Shown here: one piece after another, positions 1,430-16,574 of the stretch
Layout: each line of letters starts with the position of its first letter
Numbering within the stretch: position 1 is the first letter of the stretch
From: Pontiella agarivorans
GTDB taxonomy: Bacteria > Verrucomicrobiota > Kiritimatiellia > Kiritimatiellales > Pontiellaceae
DNA: 64,000 bases
Direction of reading: 5' to 3'
Assembly (NCBI RefSeq): GCF_034531395.1
Contig: NZ_JARVCO010000010.1
Location: 372,001-436,000 of the forward strand
The notes under the pieces: model-generated
Told to the model about the DNA's origin: nothing
Database searches by the model: none
Seen by the model: the letters and a program-made list of their open reading frames with translations, nothing else
Program-made: the position numbers and the translations under genes

Positions 1430-2266
1430 TCAGTTTTGGTGTTCAATCGGGAGCAGACGTCGATACACGCCCGATATAATGGAAACAAGAACAAATAAGA
1501 AACAACTGGCCATGCAGATGGTCTGGTTGGTGGGCAGGTCAAAATTGAACGAAACCACCATGCCGGTAAACGTTGCCAGCATGGCCAGCGCCGGAGCAAT
1601 CAGCAGTACATGTGCAATTCGTTTGCTTGCCACCAGCGCCGCGGCGGGGCTGACCACCAGATAGCAGAAAATAAGCAGGGCACCCGCAATCTGCGAAGCG
1701 GCGGAAATAACCATGCCGAGCATCAGGAAATAGAGCGATTCCCAGATCCAGGTTTTAATGCCCAGAACCTTCGCGCCTTCCCGGTCCATAAAGCTGTACA
1801 GAGTCGGTCTCAGAATACAGATAAACAGAAGAAGTGCGGGGGTCAGAATCCCGAACAGGATCTTCAGTTCCTTGGCGGAGGCCAGAATCAGGTCGCCGTA
1901 CAGTACCGCATTGATTTCCATCAGACCGGGCCCGCTTTTGGAAACCAGCAGAATGGTCAATGCCGTCGCCGCAATGAAGATGATACCCATCAGCGTATCG
2001 CGCGGAATCCGCTGATTTTCAAACGGGATGGCAAACAGACTGACCGCTCCGAGAACCAGCGCAAACGAACCTGCAATCGGCGGAATCCCCAGCAGGAACG
2101 AGGCAGCAACACCGCAGGCGGCCACTTCGGAAAGGGTAATGCCGATAAAAACAGCACGTTTCAGAATCACGAATACCCCGAGCAGTGCGCAGACGGCGGA
2201 AATCAGCAGTCCGGCGGTCAGCGCCTCGGGAAACTGGCAGTAGAGGCAGGACATGGCATCATGCAT
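1430..2266 (-). CDS. znuB: Zinc/manganese-type ABC transporter permease
   Basis: This is an ABC-3 family permease of 278 residues with about eight hydrophobic segments. It belongs to the group that brings Zn2+ or Mn2+ through the inner membrane. Typical sequence includes the N-terminal GLLISAVCALLGVFVILKR and the later GALLIFCYLVVSPAAAL. The start chosen is ATG 2266, which overlaps the end of znuC by 8 bases and has CGGAGG upstream. A longer in-frame start at 2359 would overlap znuC much more. It acts with znuC and znuA. Metal specificity cannot be read from the permease, but the His-rich neighbours favour zinc. Confidence 0.9.
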   Translation of the reverse strand: MHDAMSCLYCQFPEALTAGLLISAVCALLGVFVILKRAVFIGITLSEVAACGVAASFLLGIPPIAGSFALVLGAVSLFAIPFENQRIPRDTLMGIIFIAATALTILLVSKSGPGLMEINAVLYGDLILASAKELKILFGILTPALLLFICILRPTLYSFMDREGAKVLGIKTWIWESLYFLMLGMVISAASQIAGALLIFCYLVVSPAAALVASKRIAHVLLIAPALAMLATFTGMVVSFNFDLPTNQTICMASCFLFVLVSIISGVYRRLLPIEHQN

Positions 2267-2933
2267 CGGCCGCACCTCCGTTGAGTTTGACGATTTCAGC
2301 CCGTCCCCGTCCAACCCGGCAGATGGTGTCGGTGAGGGTTCCGGCCAGTTCCAGATCATGATGGACCATGAGTACGGTTTTACCGTCGTTCTGATTCAGC
2401 TTCATCAGATGTTCCAGCACATCGTGTTCCGACTGCTCGTCCAGTTCAGAGGTCGGTTCATCCATAATGATAATGTCCGGCTGCCGGACCAGCGCGCGGG
2501 CAATGAGCACCTTCTGTTTCATGCCGCCGGAAAGTTCGCGGAACGTTTTCTGCATATGTTCCGCCATACCGAGTTCTTCGAGGGCATGGACCACTGCTTG
2601 CTTTTGCCGGGAGGTCAGCGGCCGGAACAGCCGGCGTTCTGCAGAGAGCCCCATCTCCACAATCTGCCGCACAGAGATGGGGTACAACGGGTCAATGACC
2701 CGGTGCTGCGGAACATAACCTGCCGGGGTCTGCCGGAACGGCGTGTCAATTTTGCCGCGCCGGATCGGAACAAGGCCGAGCATGGCACGAAGCAAGGAGG
2801 TCTTGCCCGATCCGTTGGGGCCGGTGAACGGCAGGAAAATGCCGCGCGGAATCTGAAGATTCACGCTATGCAGCACTTCCTGTCGTCCATAGGCAATACA
2901 GACGTCCGAGCAGGTTATGATCGGGTCATTCAC
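2259..2933 (-). CDS. znuC: Zinc/manganese-type ABC transporter ATP-binding protein
   Basis: This 224-residue ATPase drives the metal importer. Walker A reads GPNGSGKTSLL, the signature is LSGGMKQK, and Walker B IIIMDEPTSELDE is followed by the H-loop VHHD. The start is a GTG whose first bases overlap the stop of znuA (GTGA, 4 bases), a sign of translational coupling. The order substrate-binding protein, ATPase, permease is the standard one for this family. Confidence 0.92.
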   Translation of the reverse strand: MNDPIITCSDVCIAYGRQEVLHSVNLQIPRGIFLPFTGPNGSGKTSLLRAMLGLVPIRRGKIDTPFRQTPAGYVPQHRVIDPLYPISVRQIVEMGLSAERRLFRPLTSRQKQAVVHALEELGMAEHMQKTFRELSGGMKQKVLIARALVRQPDIIIMDEPTSELDEQSEHDVLEHLMKLNQNDGKTVLMVHHDLELAGTLTDTICRVGRGRAEIVKLNGGAADA

Positions 2934-3835
2934 TCAGGCTGCTCCGTAAGACGCTTCACGATCAGATCGATCAGCGCAATATAGTCATCCGCCTCCGGAT
3001 CACTGCCGGTGAAGATAGGCGCCGTCACAACATGTGCACCGGTCTTTCCGGCCACTTTTTCGGCCGCCTTGGTGCTGTACCACGGTTCCTGCAGGATGAT
3101 TTCAATATCATCGGCTTCCACCGTCTGAATAACGCGGGTCAGGTGCGCCGGGCTCGGCGGAACGCCGGGTTTGGGTTCCAGCTCGATGGCAATGTCGATG
3201 CCGAACCGCTCGCAGAAATAGATCCAGCTCTTATGGTAGGTCACAATGGACTTCCCTTTCATCGGTTCAAGTTTCTGCTTCCATCCGGTCATCTTTTCTT
3301 CGATTTTATCTGAAAAGGCCGCCGCATTTTTACGGTAGGTATCGGCATTTTCCGGATCGAGCAACGCGAGGCGTCCCGCAATATCGGCGGCCACATGCTT
3401 TGCATTCTCCGGATCGGTCAGATAGTGCGGGTTTCCTGCAGCATGGACATCACCCATGGCCCGGGTCAGCATGCCGGCATCCGGGATTTCCAGCTTATGG
3501 ATGTGTTTCGATGCATCGAGATGACCCAGTTGGCCCGGCCGGATATCCCGGTTGCGGGAGCCGTTGATCACCGGCATTTCCCAGCCGATTTCCAGTTCCA
3601 TGCCGGTACGGATCCACAGGTCCGCATTGCGGGCCATTATGATGTATTTCGGGCGCGCCTGCAGATGGTGCGGATCCTGATTGCCTGTGGCAATCGATTG
3701 CACCTTGATCAGGTCACCGCCGATGGTTTCGGCAATCGATCCCAGGTCGGATGTGGTGGTCACCACGTTCAGCTTGCCGAAACTGATCGCCGAAGCGGTC
3801 AGGGCGAGAAAAAGTATGCCTGTTTTTTTTAACAT
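2930..3835 (-). CDS. znuA: Metal-binding periplasmic protein of the ZnuA/TroA family
   Basis: This 301-residue substrate-binding protein has an N-terminal signal peptide ending near ASAISFGK. The VVTTTSDLGSIAETIGGD start and the DPHHLQARPKYI segment supply family-typical His ligands, and further conserved His and acidic positions follow (NPHYLTDPENA, SIVTYHKSW). The long acidic/His loop seen in many ZnuA proteins is absent, so manganese remains possible. ATG 3835 has a good AGGAG. The gene starts 10 bases after the porin stop, placing it in the same operon. Confidence 0.88.
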   Translation of the reverse strand: MLKKTGILFLALTASAISFGKLNVVTTTSDLGSIAETIGGDLIKVQSIATGNQDPHHLQARPKYIIMARNADLWIRTGMELEIGWEMPVINGSRNRDIRPGQLGHLDASKHIHKLEIPDAGMLTRAMGDVHAAGNPHYLTDPENAKHVAADIAGRLALLDPENADTYRKNAAAFSDKIEEKMTGWKQKLEPMKGKSIVTYHKSWIYFCERFGIDIAIELEPKPGVPPSPAHLTRVIQTVEADDIEIILQEPWYSTKAAEKVAGKTGAHVVTAPIFTGSDPEADDYIALIDLIVKRLTEQPE

Positions 3836-5557: not shown

Positions 5558-5675
5558 AGTCAGGTCAAGCCGTTGGAGTACAAAAACGGTCTGGTTTTAC
5601 GGCTCGTTTTTTCCGTAAAATCCCGGTTGCTTTCCCGAAATGAAGTGTGTAGCTTTCCCGACTTATTCCACGTGA

Positions 5676-5767
5676 GGAGAGGTGTCTGAGTGGTTTAAAG
5701 AGCACGCTTGGAAAGCGTGTGTGCGCTTTACGGTGCACCGGGAGTTCGAATCTCCCCCTCTCCGCCA
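5676..5767 (+). tRNA. tRNA-Ser (anticodon GGA), CCA encoded
   Basis: The acceptor strands GGAGAGG and CCTCTCC pair, with discriminator G and an encoded CCA at 5765-5767. The anticodon stem CACGC/GCGTG closes the loop TTGGAAA, giving GGA for serine. A long variable arm and the T-loop TTCGAAT are present, as expected for a class II tRNA. Confidence 0.97.
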
Positions 5768-5773
5768 TTTTCC

Positions 5774-5807
5774 AGACCATCGGCCCGTGCCGACGGTCTT
5801 TTTTTTT
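5774..5807 (+). terminator. Rho-independent terminator after tRNA-Ser
   Basis: A stem AGACCATCGGC/GCCGACGGTCT (one G-T pair) with a 4-base loop is followed by a run of nine or more T. Confidence 0.9.
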
Positions 5808-5873
5808 GTACCTATGATTGAGGCCTGCTGCTGGTTCCGGTACATCTTACCTAACACAACAAGGAGATTCACG

Positions 5874-6308
5874 ATGTCCGTAATGAAGTCGCTGCAAGCA
5901 GAAATAAGCCGGCTGGCCCGGAAAGAGATTAAAAAAGAGCTCGAACCGGTGAAGCGGGTCTGTGCAGCTCAGCGCGGGTATATTGCCGATCTGAGGCGTG
6001 AGATTGCCGCGTTGGAAAAGGAAGTTTCCCGATTACGCAAAATGACGGGTGCGCCTGAGCCGGTCAAGGTTGAGGAGTCGGAAAAGGGGTTCTGGATTTC
6101 CGGAAAAGGCGTGGTTTCGCTCCGTAAGAAACTCGCTTTAACTCAGGCAGAGCTGGCGCAGCTCGCCGGGGTAAGTGCCCAGTCGGTGGTGAAGTGGGAA
6201 AAGTATGAGGGCAAAATTCCGCTGCGGAAAAAAGAAACTGCGGTTCGACTGCAGGGGATTCGCGGAATGAGCAAAACCAAAGCCCGGGCTGAGCTGGAAA
6301 GGGAATAG
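5874..6308 (+). CDS. Small HTH (XRE-type) protein with N-terminal coiled coil
   Basis: A 144-residue protein starts at ATG 5874 after AAGGAG. Residues about 5-60 are heptad-like and charged, suggesting a coiled coil. Residues about 83-125 form a Cro/C1-type helix-turn-helix (LRKKLALTQAELAQLAGVSA, then VVKWEK). It is likely a DNA-binding regulator. Similar proteins with a basic coiled coil and a C-terminal HTH occur alone in many bacteria and their targets are not known. A longer in-frame ORF reaching back into tRNA-Ser is not the real gene. Confidence 0.8.
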   Translation: MSVMKSLQAEISRLARKEIKKELEPVKRVCAAQRGYIADLRREIAALEKEVSRLRKMTGAPEPVKVEESEKGFWISGKGVVSLRKKLALTQAELAQLAGVSAQSVVKWEKYEGKIPLRKKETAVRLQGIRGMSKTKARAELERE

Positions 6309-6449
6309 CCCGGTTCAGATTGCGGGCGAATTCGTCCGGCGGAGCGCGGTAAACGCATACCGTTAATATGCGCCGCGCATAATTTCTGTACTTTTTGGGT
6401 TGCAAGGTGCGCCTTAAAAATACATCTTCTGCGCCTTCGTTCCATGAAC
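6309..6449 (+). other. Non-coding stretch leading into tRNA-like RNA
   Basis: There is no supported gene here. It contains the 5' arm (TTCTGCGCC, 6427-6435) of a 9-bp hairpin whose other arm (GGCGCAGAA) is at 6458-6466, so the transcript of the tRNA-like element may start in this stretch. Confidence 0.4.
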
Positions 6450-6547
6450 GGAGATGCGGCGCAGAAATCAGCATCGGTGCATACCGGACAAATGCTGCCT
6501 TTCGGGGCCGGCGAAAGCGGGTGGTTCGACTCCCCCCATCTCGACCA
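6450..6547 (+). ncRNA. tRNA-like RNA with T-arm, acceptor end and CCA, identity unknown
   Basis: GGAGATG (6450-6456) can pair with CATCTCG (6537-6543) except at the outermost base, followed by A and an encoded CCA (6545-6547). Just before it is a T-arm, GGTGG-TTCGACT-CCCCC, with one internal T-C mismatch. Between lie two clear hairpins: CAGCAT(CGGT-GCAT-ACCG)ATGCTG at 6469-6497 and CTTTCG/CGAAAG at 6499-6517. No normal D-arm or anticodon arm with U33 could be fitted, and no tmRNA 5' half or tag ORF was found. Candidates are a degenerate tRNA or tmRNA or a new tRNA-like RNA. It lies 63 bases before tRNA-Gly. Confidence 0.45.
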
Positions 6548-6550
6548 GCG

Positions 6551-6565
6551 TTCCAAGGATTGGAA
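6551..6565. repeat. TTCCAA-GGA-TTGGAA palindrome
   Basis: Perfect 6+3+6 inverted repeat, four bases after the CCA end of the tRNA-like RNA. It belongs to the recurrent TTCCAAnnnTTGGAA family of this window. Confidence 0.6.
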
Positions 6566-6609
6566 CTGCGATACCGAAACCCGGGAAGGGACGGTGCGGA
6601 ACGAAATAT

Positions 6610-6684
6610 GCGAGCGTAGCTCAGTGGTAGAGCCCCACCTTGCCAAGGTGACTGTCGTGAGTTCGAATCTCATCGCTCGCTCCA
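6610..6684 (+). tRNA. tRNA-Gly (anticodon GCC), CCA encoded
   Basis: Acceptor strands GCGAGCG/CGCTCGC with discriminator T and encoded CCA. The D-arm contains AGCTCAGTGGTAGAGC. The anticodon loop TTGCCAA gives GCC, and the T-loop is TTCGAAT. All arms pair. Confidence 0.97.
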
Positions 6685-6688
6685 TTTT

Positions 6689-6723
6689 AAAACCCGGTTC
6701 GAAGCTTCGGACCGGGTTTTTTT
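6689..6723 (+). terminator. Rho-independent terminator after tRNA-Gly
   Basis: AAACCCGGT and ACCGGGTTT form a strong stem around CGAAGCTTCG-type loop sequence, followed by a T-run. Confidence 0.9.
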
Positions 6724-6728
6724 ATGCC

Positions 6729-6770
6729 CTTAAATCATGATTATAATGATCAATAATAAAATGATTTAAG
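6729..6770. promoter_or_regulatory. Long inverted repeat with promoter-like core upstream of autotransporter
   Basis: CTTAAATCAT (6729-6738) and ATGATTTAAG (6761-6770) are perfect 10-base inverted arms around 22 AT-rich bases. TATAAT (6742-6747) inside is a possible -10 box. The likely role is promoter and operator for the sORF and autotransporter that follow; the regulator is unknown. Confidence 0.45.
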
Positions 6771-7060: not shown

Positions 7061-10000
7061 ATGAAAGCACATGACGCACATCCGGCAATCCGTTTATTTG
7101 TATTAACTGCGGTTCTTCCACTCGTGTTTATTCCAGTCCTTCAGGCGGTTCCGGACGAACCGATCATCACCAACGGTATAGCTTATTTCGAAGGGAACCA
7201 GTCCTGTGGCATGGTCTGGACCGCATCGACAGCCGTTCCATCCATTGTTGTCAGCAACCTGACCGCCGATATCACTCCGTCTAACGGTACGACGGGCATT
7301 ATACTAGACGACAACAAGGAGTCTGTTGCGTTGTCGATGATGTATCACAGCAACGACTATATTATCCGCACCGAGGGAAATTCAGCCATGGGCATCATGG
7401 CGGACAGCGGTGCTCCTCAGGGAACGGATCGGGGAACTGCGTCTGGAGGAAATGATGGAGTCTCAGGCGGCACGGGTGGTAGCGCTGACAAGGTGTCTGC
7501 ATTCATCATAGGAGCGATTCAAACTGCCGGAACGAATTCTCTCGGAGTTCTGGGCATGAGTACAGGGGGTCGAGGTGGCAAAGGAGGTAATGGAGGTGAG
7601 GGGTTCTTGGATGATGGCGCGGGCGGCAACGGCGGCACCGGCGGGAATGGAGGTTCTGTCATCATTACCGGACAGATTGCCGTTGCAACATCAGGGAGCA
7701 TTTCTCATGGAATCATGGGCCTGAGTCAGGGGGGGGATGGTGGAAGCGGCGGGCATGGATATGAAGACGCTGGAGGTAAAGGCGGAACCGGGGGTGTGGG
7801 CGGCATGGTTTCAATTATTGGGGGTGGCCTCATAGAGACCTCAGGTGATGGTGCAAGTGGAATCTACGCACGCAGTGCCGGCGGCCAAGGAGGGAAAGGT
7901 GAACAGGGTCATGGGAATGCCGATGGCGGGAATGGCGGATATGGCGGTCATGCGGGTTCCGTGGTAGTTACCAGCACATGGAATATTGCCACATCCGGTG
8001 CCGGTTCCAGCGGTATTATGGCTATAAGCTCAGGAGGGGCTGGAGGTCGCGGTGAATCCAATGGAAGTGATGTTGGGTATCACGCTGGTCGCGGCGGAAC
8101 CGGAGGGAACGCCGGATCTGTTTGGGTAACCGGCAGTGGCACTATTGAAACAAGAGGAACCCACTCAAGCGGTATCAATGCGCTTAGCGCAGGGGGCTCG
8201 GGAGGAAGGGGAAGTGCTGGATTTCAATCCGGTGATGGAGGAAGAGGGGGTGCGGGAGGTGCCGGTGGCACGGTCACCGTAAACGGAAGTTGGACCATTG
8301 ATACAGTTTCATCCGGTTCGCATGGAATATCAGCTGGCAGTTTGGGCGGCGATGGAAATGACGGAGGGAATGGTAAGTCCGATTCGGCAGATGATGGCAA
8401 TGGGGGTTCTGGAGGTACTGGTGCCAATGCGGGGGATGCAGCGGTTTCAGGAAATACTGAAATAAGAACCCAGGGCGATGGTGCTTTCGGTGTTTTAGTG
8501 AAGAGCGTTGGTGGTCGTGGAGGAAATGCCGGAGAAGCATATGAAGACTCTGGCGGCCGAGGCGGAAACGGAGGACAGGGCGGTTCTTCTTTTTTCAGCG
8601 GTTCCGGCAGTATCGAAACTGCGGGTAATGGGGCCTATGGTATTTATGCATTGAGTTCCGGCGGACTGGGCGGACGTGGCGGTGAAGGCCATGGGAATGC
8701 CCATGGCGGAGATGGAGGCCATGGAGGTAGTGCAGGTAACGTAGTGATGACCAGTAACTGCCATATTGCGACAGCTGGATCTAACTCTACTTGCATACTT
8801 GCCGAGAGCATAGGAGGAGCCGGAGGGAGTGGGCATAGCAACGGAAAGGATGTGGGATATCATTCGGGTGATGGAGGGAGCGGGGGTAATGCCGGTTCAA
8901 TTGATTTAACAGGGTTTGGATATCTGGAAACCGAGGGAACTAATGGTGCCGGTATCCTTGCGAAAAGCAAAGGGGGTGCGGGAGCGAAGGGTGCCGGTGG
9001 CTTTCAATCGGGTAATGGCGGAACAGGCGGTTCCGGAGGTGCTGGAGCAGAAGTTCGAATGAACGGGAATTGGAATGTCACAACATGGGCCGTTGCATCA
9101 CATGGCATTTCCGCAAGCAGTCTGGGAGGCCAGGGGGGTGATGGAGGAGGGAGTGATAAAGATTGGCTGGATGATGGCAAGGGGGCAGATGGCGGCCTTG
9201 GAGGCAATAGCGGTAATGTAAGTGTTTCAGGAAAAATTTCCATCGCCACCTCGGGAGAGGGAGCCTATGGGTTGCTTGCATTGAGCGAGGCGGGAAACGG
9301 TGGTAATGGAGGGACGACATACGATAATAAAGACGTTGGAGGAAAAGGCCGCGTAGGTGGTGATAGTGGAATGGTCACGATTACGGGGAGCGGACGCGTT
9401 GCGACCTCGGGTCACAACTCTAAAGGCCTTATAGCTGTGAGCCGGGCGGGCCGTGGCGGCGACGGGGGGGATGGGAAAGACTGGGCGGACGGTGGCAACG
9501 GGGCCGCCGGCGGGGATGCGGATGCTGTTTTAGTTGATGGCAACTGGCTCATCTCAACCCGGGGCACAAATTCGGCAGGAATCAGCGCTAATAGCTTTGG
9601 GGGTTCCGGCGGCACGGCGGGAGCGGGGGGATGGGATCTGTTTGCTGATGATGGAGCCGGGGGCGGCTCGGGCGACGGAGCCAACGTCGCAGTTTTTTTC
9701 AAGGGTGAGATTGAGACTCAGGGGAAGGATTCACATGGAATCTTCGCGCAAAGCATTGGTGGTTTTGGAGGTAATGCACCTGAGGAACCGGATGAAATTA
9801 TTCTGATTTCTTTGCCGGCTTTTTCAGGGTCTGGAGGAAGTGCCGGCGGTGGAGGAAATGTTAACATTGAAAACTATGGAAAGATTCTGACCTATGGTAC
9901 CGGATCCCATGCCCTTTTTGCTCAAAGTATTGGGGGGGGGGGCGGTTCCGGAATCGCGGAGGAGTTCGAGTTTTTTTGGGGTGCAATTACGATTCATCAA

Positions 10001-13000
10001 GATGCTCCACAGGGAGGCAATGGCGGGAGGATTGCCATATCAAATGGCGGGGTGCTCCAGACGACCAACCATAATTCCCGGGGTATTTTCGCCCAGAGTG
10101 TCGGGGGAGGGGGAGGCAATGTTACTGATTCCTTCTCACTGTTTTCCAATCTGGGAGGTACAGGAGGTGCAGGGGGCGATGGTGGAACCGTATCTGTTAC
10201 CAACTTTGGTCGTATTGCTACAGCTGGAAACAATTCCGAAGCTGTTTTTGCCCAGAGCATAGGCGGAGGCGGCGGTACTGGCGGAGGAAGTGCCGCAGTG
10301 GGGTGGTGGGGGAGTTTGGCGATTGGCGGTACAGGTGGAAAAGGCGGGGATGCCTCCACCGTAGATATCCAGAATATTCTGGATGGCGTTATTTCAACGA
10401 CGGGCGAAGGTTCTTTTGGAATTTTTGCCCAAAGTGTCGGAGGCGGCGGCGGACAAGGCGGATATGCAACATCGGTTTCTGCCGGGAACGGAGGATCTCT
10501 GGCGGTAGCTATTGGAGGTCGAGGCGGAGAGGGTGGAGATGGCGGGGCTGTAAATGTAGATAATGCAGCTTCAGTTATGACGTATGGTAATAATGCCCAT
10601 GCCATTATTGCGCAGAGCGGCGGGGGGGGCGGAGGATCAGGAGGTCAAAGCATTGCCGCAAGCGTGAGCGATAAGGTCGCGGGTTCATGGAGCATGGGAG
10701 GTGCCGGAGAAAAAGGAGGCGATGCGGGAACAGTAACCGTCAATTCTTCTGGATCGGTTATTACGGATGGGACTCATTCCTATGGGATTCTGGCCCAAAG
10801 CGTTGGTGGCGGAGGTGGAGACGGAGGAACCAGTATTGCCGGCAGTGGCGCGGTTAATGGGGCTGTGGCAGTTTCGATTGGCGGGCTTGGCGGGCCTGGC
10901 GGTTTTGGCGGAAACGTATACGTTACAAACAGCGGAGAGATCATCACCCGATCCAGCAAGAAGGGCGAAGTTTCCAACTTCAGCTCCAACCTTGGCCCGG
11001 ACGAAGTTGAATCGCCGATGGGATCGGCCGGTATTTTTGCCCAGAGCATCGGTGGTGGTGGTGGAAACGGCGGAATGGCCTTTTCAGGAACAATTTCCGG
11101 AGGGGGTAAGTCCATAGGATTATCAACTGCTTTCGGGGGAAAGGGCGGAACCGGGAACTCTGCGGGGGATGTGATGCTTCTGAACGCCGGATGCATTGAA
11201 ACGTCCGGGATCAATTCGCCGGCAATTATGGCTCAAAGTATTGGAGGAGGAGGCGGTAACGGTGGTTCCGCCTATTCCTTCGGTCTTACTGTACCCATTA
11301 CCGACAAAGCATTTAACCTTGGCATATCCTCTGCCGTAGGAGGTCAAGGTGGTGAAGGAGGTATTGGAGGCAGGGTAAATGTGATGAATGACGGAGAAAT
11401 GACAACGCGAGGAGATGATTCACAGGGAATTTTTGCCCAGAGTATTGGAGGTGGGGGAGGCAATGGGGGTTCGAGCCTCGCTTTATCCTTGGGGCTCAAC
11501 TTTACCGCCGCAGGCAAACAGTTGTTGTTAACCCGTTCACTCGGAGGAGAAGGGGGTGAAGGAAACTATGGAGGATCCGTTTCCGTAGATAACAATGGGA
11601 ATATCCTCACCTTGGGGGATATGTCGGACGGTATTCTTGCTCAGAGCATTGGCGGGGGGGGCGGTAACGGAGGAGATGCTCAGGCTATCTCGCTGAATCT
11701 GGGATGGCAGAGCATAAGTCCAGTCGGATCACCCACATCTATTTTGAAAGGCGACTGGATGGTTGGCGGGGATGGAGGCAGCGGCAGCCATGGAGGGGTT
11801 GTAGCCGTCACAAACCGTGAATCTGTTCAGACAGAAGGTATAAAGTCCCGAGCCATCTTTGCCCAGAGCATCGGCGGGGGTGGCGGGGATGGAGGAAATG
11901 GCATAAGAAGCCTGGGCCCCATACTGGATGCTGCTAAATTCATTCTGGACACGACGCCTTACTGGCAAAACTTGTCATTTGTAGTCGGGGGCAATGGCGG
12001 TAGCAGCGGGAATGCGGGTGCGGTCAATGTTTGGAATTCGGGTGATCTGGTCACCAGCAATTATGCTTCGCCCGCCATCCTGGCACAAAGTGTTGGAGGT
12101 GGGGGTGGTATCGCTCAGGATTTTTATAAGGTGGAATCAACCGGATCCGGTGGAAGTGCAGAGGCCGGTGCTTTAGGTAAAGTAGGCATCGGAGGAGCAG
12201 GCGGGTCTGCAGGAGACGGGGATCGCGTGGATGTTTTCAATAGCGGAGATATTCACACGGGAGATGACGAATCCCATGGTATTTTCGCCCAGAGTGTGGG
12301 CGGAGGTGGCGGAATCGCCGGAAATGTGAGCCGTGTTATTGATGACGATATGTGGCTGGTCGGAGGTCTCGATGTCGGGCTGGGACTGGACTGGGCTCGA
12401 GACGGCGGGTGCGGAGGAAACGGCGGTAACGTGACGATTACCAACTTGGGCCATATTGAAACTCATGGGATTCGTTCCTTTGGTATCTTTGCACAAAGCG
12501 TCGGTGGGGGCGGGGGGCTCGCCGGCGGAAAATCACTATTGGCTGACGGAATCTCATATATAACCGATTTTTTCAGTGGAAGCGTCGGTGGCTATGGTGA
12601 CAGTGGATATGTCCGAGTCATGAACTCTGGTGATGTCATCACCTATGGAGAAGCATCCGATGCGATCTTTGTACAGAGTGTCGGTGGCACGAATGAAAAC
12701 GGCAAGGCGAAGGGCCAAGGAGAAATCGTTCAGATTGAATTGATGGGCAGTGCGATGGCATTCGGAACCAATGCAAACGGTGTATTTGCCCAAAGCACGG
12801 GTGTTAATGGCGGAACGAATATCACAATAAGCATATCCGACGGTGTGGTTCAGGGCGGCTACGGAACCGGCACTGGAGTGCATATATCGGGAGGCTTGTC
12901 TAATACGCTGGCAAATTATGGCGTGATCTACACGATGAACGGGGCAACGGGTACTGCAGTAAAGGGTGAGGCATTTGATGAATCGATTTTCAATGCAGGT

Positions 13001-14590
13001 GAAATCATCGGTTCGGTGGATCTCGGCGGCGGGAAGAATAATTTTTATAACAGGGAATCGGGCACGTTCAATTCAGGTTCTGTTATAAACCTTGGTGCCG
13101 GCAACTTATTGGTCAATGCGGGCACCCTATCCCCTGCCGGCGTGACCACCTTGCTGACGGGCGACTATATGCAAACGACTTCCGGCGTACTGCGCTTCGA
13201 TGTAAATGGAAGTGCAGGAAGCGACCAACTGGTGGTGGATGGAACCGCTACGCTGGATGGAACCATTTGGATCGTTAATGGGGGAGGGGTATTTACGAAT
13301 GGCATGATGTTCGATGTGCTCATTTCATCGAATGATCTTGTGGATACATTCAGCCACACAAACCTGCCTCCGGCCAAACCGTTATTGTTTTTCGGATTGG
13401 AACAGGAGTCAGACCGCATCAGGGTTACCTCCACGGTAGATCGTTTTAAATCGGTGGCAAAGAACCCCCTCGAAAAAAGAATGGGCCGGCTCCTCGATGC
13501 GCTGATTCCAACCGCACCGGGTGACTTGCTGGATGTTATGGCCGCATTCCAGAAAGCGGATTCCGCGCAATACCAAAGGGCCTTCGAAAGTCTGAGTCCT
13601 GCGGCGCACGGATCGTCATCGCAAGCCGCGATCTCTTCTGCAAGACAGGCTTCGGGCGGAGTGCGCAGCCGCATGAGCCGTGTGAGCCGCGGACCCGGCG
13701 CGCAACCAACCGGCGTGAACGGGCCGGATATTGGTGATCTGCGAACGGCTGATGGACGGCCGACCGGGTTCTGGATGGGGGCCATCGGCGTGCTGGGCGA
13801 TCAGTCGGAGAAAGATGGCTATTCCGGTTATGAGTTCACTACCGGCGGCTTTGAACTCGGATACGATCGGATCTTCGAGAGTAAAACCATTCTCGGTGTA
13901 AGCATCGGCTATGCAAATACCGGCGTTGACCTCGATAACGATGGAGGCGATTCAACGATCCGGTCGATCGGCGGAACGGTCTATGGTGCACGGCAGGCGG
14001 ATGCGTGGTATTTCGAAGGGATACTCGGCTATGGAAATCAGCGGTTTGACAGCGACCGTAATGTGACGGTTGGCACCATGAACGAGGTTGCGAGAAGCGA
14101 GCATGACGGCGATCTGTTTTCGCTTGCGGGCAAGGTTCGTTATGATATCGACCGGGAAAAATGGACGTTTTCACCTTTGGTATCGCTGTACTGGTTCCAT
14201 CTTGATGAGGACGGATTCTCCGAAACCGGTGCACCCGGAGCCAACCTGATGGTTAATTCGCGTAGTAGCGATGCGCTGCTGTCCGAATTGGGCGCACGGG
14301 CGATGCTCACGATTCTATCCGGGGAGCGCGAGTGGAAGCCGTTCCTGAAGCTGTCCTGGTTGCACGATTTCGATATCGGCGATCAATCGCTGACCGCAGC
14401 TTTTGAAGGCGCTCCGAATGCGCCGTTCTCGATTGAAGGCCCGGAGCCGGACAACGATGGACTGTTGATTGGCACAGGCTTCTATTTCATGGGAGCGGAC
14501 CGGTTCAGCGCGGGTCTCGGTTATGAAGCTGAGCTGCGCAAGAGCTTCAATGCCCAATATCTCTGGGGTGAGCTGCGGTTTGCGTTCTGA
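7061..14590 (+). CDS. Giant glycine-rich autotransporter (type Va)
   Basis: This 2509-residue protein has a signal peptide ending near VLQA (about residue 30). The passenger carries tens of Gly-rich repeats of about 50-70 residues. Up to about residue 890 they follow a pattern like SxGIxAxSxGGxGGxG; from there to about 1880 they contain GIFAQSIGGGGGNGG-type cores. Near residues 2030-2070 lies a passenger-end segment (DYMQTTSGVLRFDVNG). The last 274 residues (from about 2236) form the autotransporter beta barrel, ending in LRFAF with a terminal aromatic. Passengers of this type usually act as surface adhesins or biofilm matrix proteins. ATG 7061 has GGGAGAAG upstream. Confidence 0.92.
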   Translation: MKAHDAHPAIRLFVLTAVLPLVFIPVLQAVPDEPIITNGIAYFEGNQSCGMVWTASTAVPSIVVSNLTADITPSNGTTGIILDDNKESVALSMMYHSNDYIIRTEGNSAMGIMADSGAPQGTDRGTASGGNDGVSGGTGGSADKVSAFIIGAIQTAGTNSLGVLGMSTGGRGGKGGNGGEGFLDDGAGGNGGTGGNGGSVIITGQIAVATSGSISHGIMGLSQGGDGGSGGHGYEDAGGKGGTGGVGGMVSIIGGGLIETSGDGASGIYARSAGGQGGKGEQGHGNADGGNGGYGGHAGSVVVTSTWNIATSGAGSSGIMAISSGGAGGRGESNGSDVGYHAGRGGTGGNAGSVWVTGSGTIETRGTHSSGINALSAGGSGGRGSAGFQSGDGGRGGAGGAGGTVTVNGSWTIDTVSSGSHGISAGSLGGDGNDGGNGKSDSADDGNGGSGGTGANAGDAAVSGNTEIRTQGDGAFGVLVKSVGGRGGNAGEAYEDSGGRGGNGGQGGSSFFSGSGSIETAGNGAYGIYALSSGGLGGRGGEGHGNAHGGDGGHGGSAGNVVMTSNCHIATAGSNSTCILAESIGGAGGSGHSNGKDVGYHSGDGGSGGNAGSIDLTGFGYLETEGTNGAGILAKSKGGAGAKGAGGFQSGNGGTGGSGGAGAEVRMNGNWNVTTWAVASHGISASSLGGQGGDGGGSDKDWLDDGKGADGGLGGNSGNVSVSGKISIATSGEGAYGLLALSEAGNGGNGGTTYDNKDVGGKGRVGGDSGMVTITGSGRVATSGHNSKGLIAVSRAGRGGDGGDGKDWADGGNGAAGGDADAVLVDGNWLISTRGTNSAGISANSFGGSGGTAGAGGWDLFADDGAGGGSGDGANVAVFFKGEIETQGKDSHGIFAQSIGGFGGNAPEEPDEIILISLPAFSGSGGSAGGGGNVNIENYGKILTYGTGSHALFAQSIGGGGGSGIAEEFEFFWGAITIHQDAPQGGNGGRIAISNGGVLQTTNHNSRGIFAQSVGGGGGNVTDSFSLFSNLGGTGGAGGDGGTVSVTNFGRIATAGNNSEAVFAQSIGGGGGTGGGSAAVGWWGSLAIGGTGGKGGDASTVDIQNILDGVISTTGEGSFGIFAQSVGGGGGQGGYATSVSAGNGGSLAVAIGGRGGEGGDGGAVNVDNAASVMTYGNNAHAIIAQSGGGGGGSGGQSIAASVSDKVAGSWSMGGAGEKGGDAGTVTVNSSGSVITDGTHSYGILAQSVGGGGGDGGTSIAGSGAVNGAVAVSIGGLGGPGGFGGNVYVTNSGEIITRSSKKGEVSNFSSNLGPDEVESPMGSAGIFAQSIGGGGGNGGMAFSGTISGGGKSIGLSTAFGGKGGTGNSAGDVMLLNAGCIETSGINSPAIMAQSIGGGGGNGGSAYSFGLTVPITDKAFNLGISSAVGGQGGEGGIGGRVNVMNDGEMTTRGDDSQGIFAQSIGGGGGNGGSSLALSLGLNFTAAGKQLLLTRSLGGEGGEGNYGGSVSVDNNGNILTLGDMSDGILAQSIGGGGGNGGDAQAISLNLGWQSISPVGSPTSILKGDWMVGGDGGSGSHGGVVAVTNRESVQTEGIKSRAIFAQSIGGGGGDGGNGIRSLGPILDAAKFILDTTPYWQNLSFVVGGNGGSSGNAGAVNVWNSGDLVTSNYASPAILAQSVGGGGGIAQDFYKVESTGSGGSAEAGALGKVGIGGAGGSAGDGDRVDVFNSGDIHTGDDESHGIFAQSVGGGGGIAGNVSRVIDDDMWLVGGLDVGLGLDWARDGGCGGNGGNVTITNLGHIETHGIRSFGIFAQSVGGGGGLAGGKSLLADGISYITDFFSGSVGGYGDSGYVRVMNSGDVITYGEASDAIFVQSVGGTNENGKAKGQGEIVQIELMGSAMAFGTNANGVFAQSTGVNGGTNITISISDGVVQGGYGTGTGVHISGGLSNTLANYGVIYTMNGATGTAVKGEAFDESIFNAGEIIGSVDLGGGKNNFYNRESGTFNSGSVINLGAGNLLVNAGTLSPAGVTTLLTGDYMQTTSGVLRFDVNGSAGSDQLVVDGTATLDGTIWIVNGGGVFTNGMMFDVLISSNDLVDTFSHTNLPPAKPLLFFGLEQESDRIRVTSTVDRFKSVAKNPLEKRMGRLLDALIPTAPGDLLDVMAAFQKADSAQYQRAFESLSPAAHGSSSQAAISSARQASGGVRSRMSRVSRGPGAQPTGVNGPDIGDLRTADGRPTGFWMGAIGVLGDQSEKDGYSGYEFTTGGFELGYDRIFESKTILGVSIGYANTGVDLDNDGGDSTIRSIGGTVYGARQADAWYFEGILGYGNQRFDSDRNVTVGTMNEVARSEHDGDLFSLAGKVRYDIDREKWTFSPLVSLYWFHLDEDGFSETGAPGANLMVNSRSSDALLSELGARAMLTILSGEREWKPFLKLSWLHDFDIGDQSLTAAFEGAPNAPFSIEGPEPDNDGLLIGTGFYFMGADRFSAGLGYEAELRKSFNAQYLWGELRFAF
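7740..9300 (+). repeat. Two tandem 780-bp higher-order repeats in the autotransporter
   Basis: Marker words recur at exactly 780 bases: YEDxGG (7758 and 8538), GHGNAxGG (7909 and 8689), DVGYHxGxGG (8069 and 8849), GFQSGxGG (8218 and 8998) and DDGxG (8391 and 9171). Each 260-residue block holds five units averaging 52 residues in the same order. A partial, rearranged third block follows (near 9318-9660). The DNA has diverged while length and order have not. Confidence 0.75.
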
Positions 14591-14596
14591 AAAAAG

Positions 14597-14611
14597 TTCC
14601 AATGGCTGGAA
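14597..14611. repeat. TTCCAA-TGG-CTGGAA palindrome
   Basis: Imperfect member of the TTCCAAnnnTTGGAA family between the autotransporter stop and the ABC-F start. Confidence 0.5.
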
Positions 14612-14657
14612 GTTGCAGGCGGAAGCCTGTAGGTTTTTCAGCCTTTGGAATTTTTAT

Positions 14658-16574
14658 ATGATCGATTTTATACAGGTGAGTAAACAGTTCGGTACGCAGG
14701 ATGTGCTGAAAAACGTGACGTTCCGGATTAATGCCGGGGAGCGGATCGGCATTGTCGGCCCGAACGGGGCGGGCAAATCGACCATCTTCAGCCTGATCAA
14801 TCATGAGATCGAAGCGGATGCCGGCGATATTGTACTGCCGAAGCATTGCCGGATCGGCCATCTCAAGCAGCAGCTGAATCCGCATGAAGTTGAACTGAGT
14901 CTGATCGATTATACGGAAGACTCGATTCCGGAGCTGAAAACCATTCCCGAAAAAATCCAGACCTTGGAAGAACAGCTGCAGCATTTCCAGGGGTTGGAAA
15001 AAGAGCGCGCGTTAAAGCAGGTCGGCGAACTTCAGCATACCTATGAGCATCTGGGCGGTTATGAAATGCGGGCCCGGGCCGAGGCGGCGCTGAGCGGACT
15101 GGGTTTTCATGTGGATGAATTCGAAAAACCGTTTACGTCGTTTTCGGGCGGCTGGCAGATGCGGGCCGAGCTGGCACGTACTTTGATTGCCAATCCGGAC
15201 CTGCTGATGCTCGACGAACCGTCGAACTTTCTCGATCTGCCGGCGGTGGAGTGGCTGCAGAAATTTCTGCGCGGGTATGAAGGTACGATGCTGCTGATTT
15301 CGCACGACCGCTATCTGCTGCGTTCGCTGGCGACGGTGACGCTGGAAATTGCGGGCGGTCAGGCCACGCGGTATCAGGGCGGTTATGATTATTATCTGAC
15401 GGAGCGGGAAGATCGAATCCGACATCAGCTTGCGGCCAAGGAAAACCAGGATCGCGAGATTGAGCAGATGGAAAGTTTCATCAAACGGTTTCGCGCCAAG
15501 TCGTCCAAGGCGGCACAGGTGCAGAGCCGGATTAAACAGCTGGAGAAAATGGAACGGATTGAGGCGCCGGCGACGGTGGCCAATACCTCGAAAATCCGTC
15601 TGGCGGATCCGCCGCATTCAGGGCACGAAATTATCCGCCTGGAAAAGGGCGGGTTTTCCTATGACGGCCGGCGCTGGATTTTCCAATCGCTGGATCTGAA
15701 TATCAACCGCGGCGAAAAAATTGCGCTGGTCGGTTATAACGGAATGGGCAAAACGACGCTGTTGCGGACGCTGGCCGATGCGCTGGATTTATCGGAGGGG
15801 AAGCGGGTGCTGGGCCATAAAGTGGTGGTCGGCTATCAATCGCAGGATTTTGCCGAAACCATGAATCCGGAAAAATCGGTGTATCACATTGTGAAAGATG
15901 AGCATCCGGTGGCGATGGAATCCGAGGTGCGGAATCTGCTCGGTGGATTCGGATTCAGCGGGGATACGATTGATAAAAAGGTTTCGGTGCTCAGCGGCGG
16001 CGAAAAAATCCGTCTGGCCTTTGCGCGGCTCTTTATTGATCCGCCGAATTTTCTGCTGCTCGATGAGCCGACAACGCATCTCGATGTGCAGGGGCGTGAA
16101 GCGCTGGAGCAGGCGCTGAAAAATTATAAGGGTGCGTTGTGTGTCGTTTCGCATGACGTGACCTTTGTGCGCAATATTGCTGAACAGATTATTGCGATTG
16201 ATGATTCCGGCGTTTCCCGTTTTCCGGGTAATTATGATTATTATCAGGAGAAGGTGGAGCAGCGTGCGGCAAACGTTTCGCCGCCCGCAGCAGGCGGGAC
16301 GGTGTCTTCACCGGCCGGGACCTCGTCGAAGCCGGCGGTTAAAGGCAAAGATGCCCGCAAGGCCCGCGCCGCACAGCGCGAGGCGGAAAAGGCGCTGAGT
16401 AAGATCGAGCGAAAGATCGAAAAACTCACGGCGGAGCAGACGGCGCTGACCGATGAAATGATGGCACGGCGCGATGCCGACTTTGCCTCTATAAACGCCC
16501 GTCTGGCGGAAATCCAAGGCGAAATCCAATCTCTGGAAGCCGAGTGGGAAGCCACCGCTGAAGCATTAGGCTGA
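14658..16574 (+). CDS. ABC-F family ATPase (Uup/YheS type)
   Basis: A 638-residue soluble protein with two ABC domains and no membrane part. Domain 1 has Walker A GPNGAGKST, signature FSGGWQMR and Walker B LLMLDEPSNFLDL. A charged linker (about 240-320) is followed by domain 2 with GYNGMGKTT, LSGGEKIR and FLLLDEPTTHLDV. The C-terminal 80 residues, rich in Lys, Ala and Glu, look like a coiled coil. ABC-F proteins bind ribosomes and modulate stalled translation or antibiotic binding. ATG 14658 starts at the usual first strand (MIDFIQVSKQFG); a longer in-frame ORF into the autotransporter end is not supported. Confidence 0.9.
   Translation: MIDFIQVSKQFGTQDVLKNVTFRINAGERIGIVGPNGAGKSTIFSLINHEIEADAGDIVLPKHCRIGHLKQQLNPHEVELSLIDYTEDSIPELKTIPEKIQTLEEQLQHFQGLEKERALKQVGELQHTYEHLGGYEMRARAEAALSGLGFHVDEFEKPFTSFSGGWQMRAELARTLIANPDLLMLDEPSNFLDLPAVEWLQKFLRGYEGTMLLISHDRYLLRSLATVTLEIAGGQATRYQGGYDYYLTEREDRIRHQLAAKENQDREIEQMESFIKRFRAKSSKAAQVQSRIKQLEKMERIEAPATVANTSKIRLADPPHSGHEIIRLEKGGFSYDGRRWIFQSLDLNINRGEKIALVGYNGMGKTTLLRTLADALDLSEGKRVLGHKVVVGYQSQDFAETMNPEKSVYHIVKDEHPVAMESEVRNLLGGFGFSGDTIDKKVSVLSGGEKIRLAFARLFIDPPNFLLLDEPTTHLDVQGREALEQALKNYKGALCVVSHDVTFVRNIAEQIIAIDDSGVSRFPGNYDYYQEKVEQRAANVSPPAAGGTVSSPAGTSSKPAVKGKDARKARAAQREAEKALSKIERKIEKLTAEQTALTDEMMARRDADFASINARLAEIQGEIQSLEAEWEATAEALG

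Follow-up and report, generated by a model that had tools for sequence, protein, structure and literature searches.

A tmRNA-type 3' end at the right edge of a small insertion between tRNA-Ser and tRNA-Gly genes in Pontiella agarivorans

Between a tRNA-Ser gene and a tRNA-Gly gene of Pontiella agarivorans lies a 98-nt element (6450-6547) that ends in the manner of a tRNA, which raises the question of whether it is an RNA gene in its own right or the remnant of something else. We analyzed it within a window of 64,000 nt (contig NZ_JARVCO010000010.1, positions 372,001 to 436,000); all positions given here are those of the window, and the features of the locus are collected in Table 1. The first-pass annotation had described a 7-base acceptor with a mismatched outermost pair, a T-arm, and an encoded CCA, all of which are indeed present. 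Bases 6450-6456 (GGAGATG) pair with 6537-6543 (CATCTCG) at six of seven positions, with a G-G at the outermost one, the T-loop reads TTCGACT, and CCA occupies 6545-6547. The element therefore has the T-arm with a TTCRA loop and the CCA of a tRNA, except that the T-stem contains a U-C mismatch, which had been missed. The hairpins described at 6469-6497 and 6499-6517 and a 9-bp stem around the 5' acceptor strand can likewise all be drawn. To put a number on the signature, both strands of the window were scanned under strict criteria (T-stem of at least 4/5 pairs, T-loop TTCRA, CCA, and acceptor of at least 6/7 pairs), which returned three places, namely tRNA-Ser, tRNA-Gly, and the element, while the same scan of one strand of 60 simulated first-order Markov windows returned none. 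Thus, T-arm, CCA, and acceptor taken together exceed chance, and the signature is not noise. Taken alone, the 5' acceptor strand gives marginal evidence, weaker than that from the whole signature. When the upstream stretch is shuffled, six contiguous pairs occur in 2.6% of cases (P 0.026), whereas at least six of seven non-contiguous pairs with G-U allowed occur in 59%; a calculation from base frequencies over 26 start sites gives P about 0.008 (0.8%) for this strand.

Table 1. Features of the tRNA-Ser/tRNA-Gly locus (window coordinates)
Feature	Position	Strand	Basis
tRNA-Ser(GGA), intact, left neighbor of the insert	5676..5767	+	ARAGORN; Rfam tRNA 57.3 bits
Insert of ~780 bp, left end placed to within a few bases	5768..6547	+	not present in any of the 7 congeners measured
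Hairpin and T-run resembling a terminator, immediately after tRNA-Ser	5780..5807	+	stem 5780-5793; T-run read from the sequence
HTH gene (144-aa product, Cro/C1-type domain at residues 83-115)	5874..6308	+	Pfam HTH_3 8.9e-7
9-bp inverted repeat 6427-6435/6458-6466 with inner hairpin 6438-6442/6446-6450	6427..6466	+	folding; predicted to compete with the acceptor helix
Element body; not similar to tRNA, perhaps faintly similar to tmRNA	6450..6519	+	tRNA and tmRNA alignments
Fragment of a tmRNA-type 3' end with T-arm, 3' strand of the acceptor, and CCA	6520..6547	+	26/28 to tmRNA of G015 and G016
Ancestral tRNA-Ser/tRNA-Gly spacer, resuming right after the CCA	6548..6609	+	alignment to four congeners
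tRNA-Gly(GCC), intact, right neighbor	6610..6684	+	ARAGORN; Rfam tRNA 63.9 bits

None of the standard RNA models accounts for the element as a whole. ARAGORN calls just the two flanking tRNAs, and neither ARAGORN nor Rfam finds a tRNA with D and anticodon arms in the element. The tmRNA family (RF00023) is the sole tRNA-clan family listed there by Rfam, where it scores 10.1 bits (threshold 47), and ARAGORN reports no tmRNA with a tag peptide; what the element shares with tmRNA is the 28 nt at its 3' end. A G-U at 3-70 is the alanine identity of tmRNA, whereas pair 3-70 of the element is A-U. A tRNA-Sec (RF01852) was rejected, as the likeness is one of length alone and no match to its model is listed at the element; in the genome itself (97% complete), neither a tRNA-Sec above threshold nor a SelB above cut-off was found. 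A tRNA-Sec does occur in another genome of the same order (G039, locus L099 1502-1595, 61.9 bits, anticodon TCA). We also rejected the idea that the element supplies a missing tRNA. The genome has 49 tRNAs above threshold, assigned by ARAGORN to all 20 amino acids, and its tmRNA gene (C10:997864-998219, some 620 kb away from the element) is an ordinary one; thus nothing is missing for the element to supply.

A clear relative was found for the 3' end alone. Among 104 distinct tRNA and tmRNA sequences from the fetched loci, the last 28 nt match the tmRNA 3' ends of two congeners (G015 and G016) at 26/28 positions and further tmRNAs at 25 and 24, while the best tRNAs are a tRNA-Ser (23/28) and a tRNA-Pro (22/28). 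By eye, the element is of the tmRNA type at the positions where these tmRNAs differ from tRNA-Ser (a T-loop C, an acceptor A, and the discriminator A). A profile built from 31 tmRNAs likewise places its best match in the window at 6521-6547 (E 0.0066), followed by the tRNA-Ser end (0.66). Within its own genome, the fragment matches the tmRNA at 23/28 and the adjacent tRNA-Ser(GGA) at 21/28. The better fit to the tmRNA of two congeners than to its own, 26 versus 23 and hence a matter of three bases, suggests that the fragment came from another species. A degenerate tmRNA-end pattern, which matches 24 of 30 genomes overall (19 of the genus and 11 of a sister family), was found in 13 of the 19 genus genomes covered (out of 28), each time at the coordinates of the tmRNA; a second match among these 19 occurs solely in the genome of the window, and it is the element. 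In the sister family there are seven extra matches in 6 of the 11 genomes, which are probably tRNAs rather than tmRNA fragments because six of the seven coincide with 76-nt matches and the remaining one has the same sequence. The reading of the element as a degenerate tRNA or tmRNA in the first-pass annotation comes close for the 3' end, a tmRNA-type fragment; the body matches no tRNA and resembles tmRNA faintly at most.

The spacing of the two tRNA genes in relatives shows that DNA has been inserted between them. In the seven congeners that carry tRNA-Ser(GGA) and tRNA-Gly(GCC) in one fetched locus, the two are separated by 12 (G003), 22 (G006), 25 (G004), 67 (G001 and G025), 71 (G009), or 72 nt (G017), compared to 842 nt in the window. 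The 62 nt following the CCA of the element reach alignment scores of 46-66 with the G025, G009, G001, and G017 spacers (shuffle 95% level 23-26.5), whereas the 62 nt following the tRNA-Ser of the window score 6.5-11 against the same spacers (their own shuffle 95% level being 13.5-16.5, P 0.10-0.43). The short spacers of G003, G004, and G006 gave no helpful match to the 62 nt behind the element. From the expanded spacing and the resumption of the spacer only after the CCA, we can conclude that ~780 bp, comprising the terminator-like site, the HTH gene, and the element, have been inserted, and that the right boundary of this insertion is the CCA of the element. This also bears upon transcription. 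The flanking tRNAs are real by ARAGORN, as had been stated, but the terminator-like site that the insert brings in immediately after tRNA-Ser weakens the conclusion once drawn from them, that the element belongs to a transcribed RNA region. A promoter scan of 5560-6760 found none, not even before tRNA-Ser, and is of no help either way.

We consider it most plausible, with a probability of roughly 0.6, that the element is an insertion scar, i.e. the right edge of acquired DNA carrying a foreign tmRNA-end fragment. A small piece of DNA was inserted between tRNA-Ser(GGA) and tRNA-Gly(GCC), probably when incoming DNA with a copy of a tmRNA end underwent recombination at the tRNA-Ser 3' terminus or close to it. 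This would have left an intact tRNA-Ser on the left and the foreign tmRNA end on the right, as with a displaced tDNA fragment. The responsible integrase may since have been lost. With mismatches in both the T-stem and the first acceptor pair, the element may have decayed or may never have been a gene, and the 70 nt upstream may pair with the 28-nt end just by chance. Several observations speak against the scar: the lack of a tyrosine integrase nearby, the poor match of the fragment to the tRNA-Ser end, the position of the crossover at the CCA end, the mildly above-chance 5' acceptor match (P 0.026 and 0.008), and the resemblance of the first 16 nt to tRNA-Ser at one fixed place.

Displaced tDNA fragments are a described signature of genomic islands in tRNA and tmRNA genes, as outlined for Islander (PMC4383910). 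The locus resembles the islands in that outline in that a tDNA at one end and a tDNA 3' fragment of like orientation at the other enclose additional DNA, and in that relatives lack the insertion. It differs from them in that no integrase was found with the insert, the insert is only 780 bp, and the fragment is tmRNA-like rather than tRNA-Ser-like; in addition, a crossover at the CCA end falls outside the usual subsites in the part of PMC4383910 that names them. A search for PF00589 found three matches in the genome, all of them away from the element. The fragment is not cognate to the adjacent tDNA, which it matches at 21/28 and, over 33 nt, at 67%. Within the same repeat family, the ordinary tRNA-Gly end matches the tRNA-Ser end at 73%, better than the fragment does, and the repeat is therefore no evidence for an attL/attR pair. 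The insert looks like the same kind of scar as that of tDNA islands, though we do not class it as such an island because there is no tyrosine integrase near it and the fragment is closest to tmRNA rather than to the adjacent tRNA-Ser. In the account of Dehalococcoides islands given in PMC3146451, direct repeats of the tmRNA (ssrA) end, 20 bp in length, are found downstream of ssrA at distances of up to 100 kb, and many of the islands have an integration module. A short copy of a tmRNA 3' end at an island edge is common to that account and to our locus, whereas the fragment described here lies ~620 kb from the tmRNA gene and behind tRNA-Ser. Read in this way, the locus illustrates how a displaced tmRNA end at a tRNA locus can mimic a new tRNA-like RNA, and why claims of a new RNA class that rest on a 28-nt T-arm/CCA block call for prior comparison with tmRNA ends and empty sites.

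The body of the element is at most faintly like tmRNA. It is possible, although considerably less probable than a scar, that the element is a decayed and internally deleted copy of a tmRNA gene that arrived with the insert, its body, corresponding to what we take to be the pseudoknot 3-4 region, having been joined to the 3' end after a loss of ~57 nt. When the last 28 nt of the tmRNAs are left out, the body aligns collinearly over its full length with the G017 tmRNA at 202-271 (score 36, compared to a shuffle 95% level of 30), with P 0.01 and 0.003 in two runs of a null drawn from real window stretches; the longer stretch 6309-6519 gives P 0.02 under this null. The best alignment starts at 190-225 in 17 of 46 tmRNA sequences, including 7 of the 8 top scorers, and the mean score over 19 close tmRNAs is 23.0, compared to 17.7 for random stretches (P 0.015). 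The listing of tmRNA as the sole tRNA-clan family, albeit well below threshold, points the same way. However, these P values come from several stretches and sets and are uncorrected for multiple tries, a second set of 15 further tmRNA stretches alone gives P 0.13, and the tmRNA with the best-fitting 3' end (L035) scores just 20-21 in the body. Furthermore, the body is reported neither by a profile HMM of the whole tmRNA nor by one of the tmRNA region to which it aligns.

A degenerate pseudogene of a class II, tRNA-Ser-like tRNA is doubtful. The first 16 nt of the element match a tRNA-Ser(GCT) at 11/16 (P 0.0045 at a fixed place, 0.12 over 50 start places), and tRNA-Ser(GCT) is also the commonest identity among the weak covariance-model matches examined below. 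Against this, the first 66 nt are no better than shuffles when aligned to 79 tRNAs (score 28, shuffle 95% level 33.5), the 3' end is nearer to tmRNA (26) than to tRNA-Ser (23), and neither ARAGORN nor the tRNA model sees a tRNA.

The element is probably not a working RNA, and a species-specific tRNA-like RNA, such as an acceptor/T-arm minihelix serving as a processing signal that separates the HTH message from tRNA-Gly, seems improbable. The joint occurrence of acceptor, T-arm, and CCA on the strand of both tRNAs would suit such a role, as would the folding predicted for transcripts running through to 6609, in which the mean acceptor probability is 0.97-0.98 when the 5' end lies at 6436, 6445, or 6450. 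Yet it drops to 0.47 with a 5' end at 6427 and to 0.01-0.14 at 6380 and 6309, while the T-stem stays at 0.36-0.40 for every 5' end tested, and both stems contain a mismatch. In a transcript from 6420, the acceptor pairs have a probability of 0.0 and the 9-bp stem 0.69-0.87; in these models, the upstream stem competes with the acceptor helix and abolishes it in transcripts that include the upstream 30 nt. The parts of the fold in the first-pass annotation can be drawn, but the energies speak against a coherent fold: the four-part arrangement has -24.3 kcal/mol compared to an optimum of -37.5 for the same 98 nt, i.e. 13 kcal/mol above the minimum, and the optimal structure has one long arm instead of the hairpin 6499-6517. 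The 98-mer folds little better than its shuffles (z -1.22; 24/200 equally good), the hairpin 6499-6517 is unremarkable (z -0.29), and the hairpin 6469-6497 has a z of -2.63, with 3/200 shuffles as good.

The relatives also speak against a working RNA. A DNA search of 58 genomes found the whole element solely in the genome of the window, with partial matches in five others, consisting of tmRNA ends (G015, G016, and G052), a tRNA-Ser end with spacer (G025), and the 21-nt stretch behind the CCA (G031). A covariance model of the single sequence scores 125.3 bits for the element itself and at most 28.9 bits elsewhere, at a tRNA-Ser; outside the genome of the window it yields 31 weak matches (E 0.04-0.94). 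Fourteen of these loci were run through ARAGORN, giving nine tRNA-Ser(GCT), two tRNA-Pro, one tRNA-Leu, one tmRNA end, and one that is neither. The match at L174 (G056, E 0.94) belongs to no tRNA or Rfam family and was taken for chance because it lacks both the T-loop and the CCA. There is also a short match between a tRNA-Pro(GGG) flank and the element. Neither the DNA search nor the covariance model, which was run with strict filters, gave a convincing homologue in the 57 related genomes, and exact-pattern scans of genome and viral contig collections, which may not include the source genome, found no copies elsewhere. We therefore rejected a conserved new RNA. The new tRNA-like RNA that had been proposed as one option is not supported: lack of stem conservation in relatives was to refute it, and no copy with conserved stems turned up in these 57 genomes. 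If the element were functional, it would represent a new RNA signal derived from a tmRNA end; that a lineage-specific RNA arose from a captured tmRNA 3' end, its minihelix forming only once the competing upstream stem is removed and acting as a processing or regulatory signal between the HTH regulator and tRNA-Gly, is very improbable.

The HTH protein of the insert has relatives in Pontiella sulfatireligans (78-79%) and other Kiritimatiellales, with matches in 34 of 97 genomes, its own included. BLAST of the insert against the fetched HTH loci recovered the HTH gene and, outside of it, only short matches, such as one of 24 nt in L040. As a marker of tRNA-linked elements the gene was set aside; tRNAs are present in 3 of the 29 loci scanned. 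In two genomes of one other family (f3), a tRNA-Ser(CGA) (L065 2184-2275 and L066 1222-1313) is followed on the same strand by an HTH homologue ~190 and 270 nt downstream, an arrangement much like the tRNA-Ser-HTH order in the window.

The tRNA-Ser/tRNA-Gly locus may be an insertion hotspot. Beyond tRNA-Gly, a 2509-aa glycine-rich gene that appears autotransporter-like by eye (7061-14590) lies before an ABC-F-like ATPase gene (ORF 14469-16574), and in G025 the same ATPase starts within about 100 nt of tRNA-Gly. Behind the CCA of the element is the palindrome TTCCAAGGATTGGAA (6551-6565). Similar sequences occupy the corresponding place in relatives, and G031 has an exact match of 21 nt; the palindrome is perhaps a widespread repeat in this order. 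On the minus strand at 1430-3835, three adjacent genes resemble, by eye, the permease, ATPase, and binding protein of a metal (zinc/manganese-type) ABC transporter.
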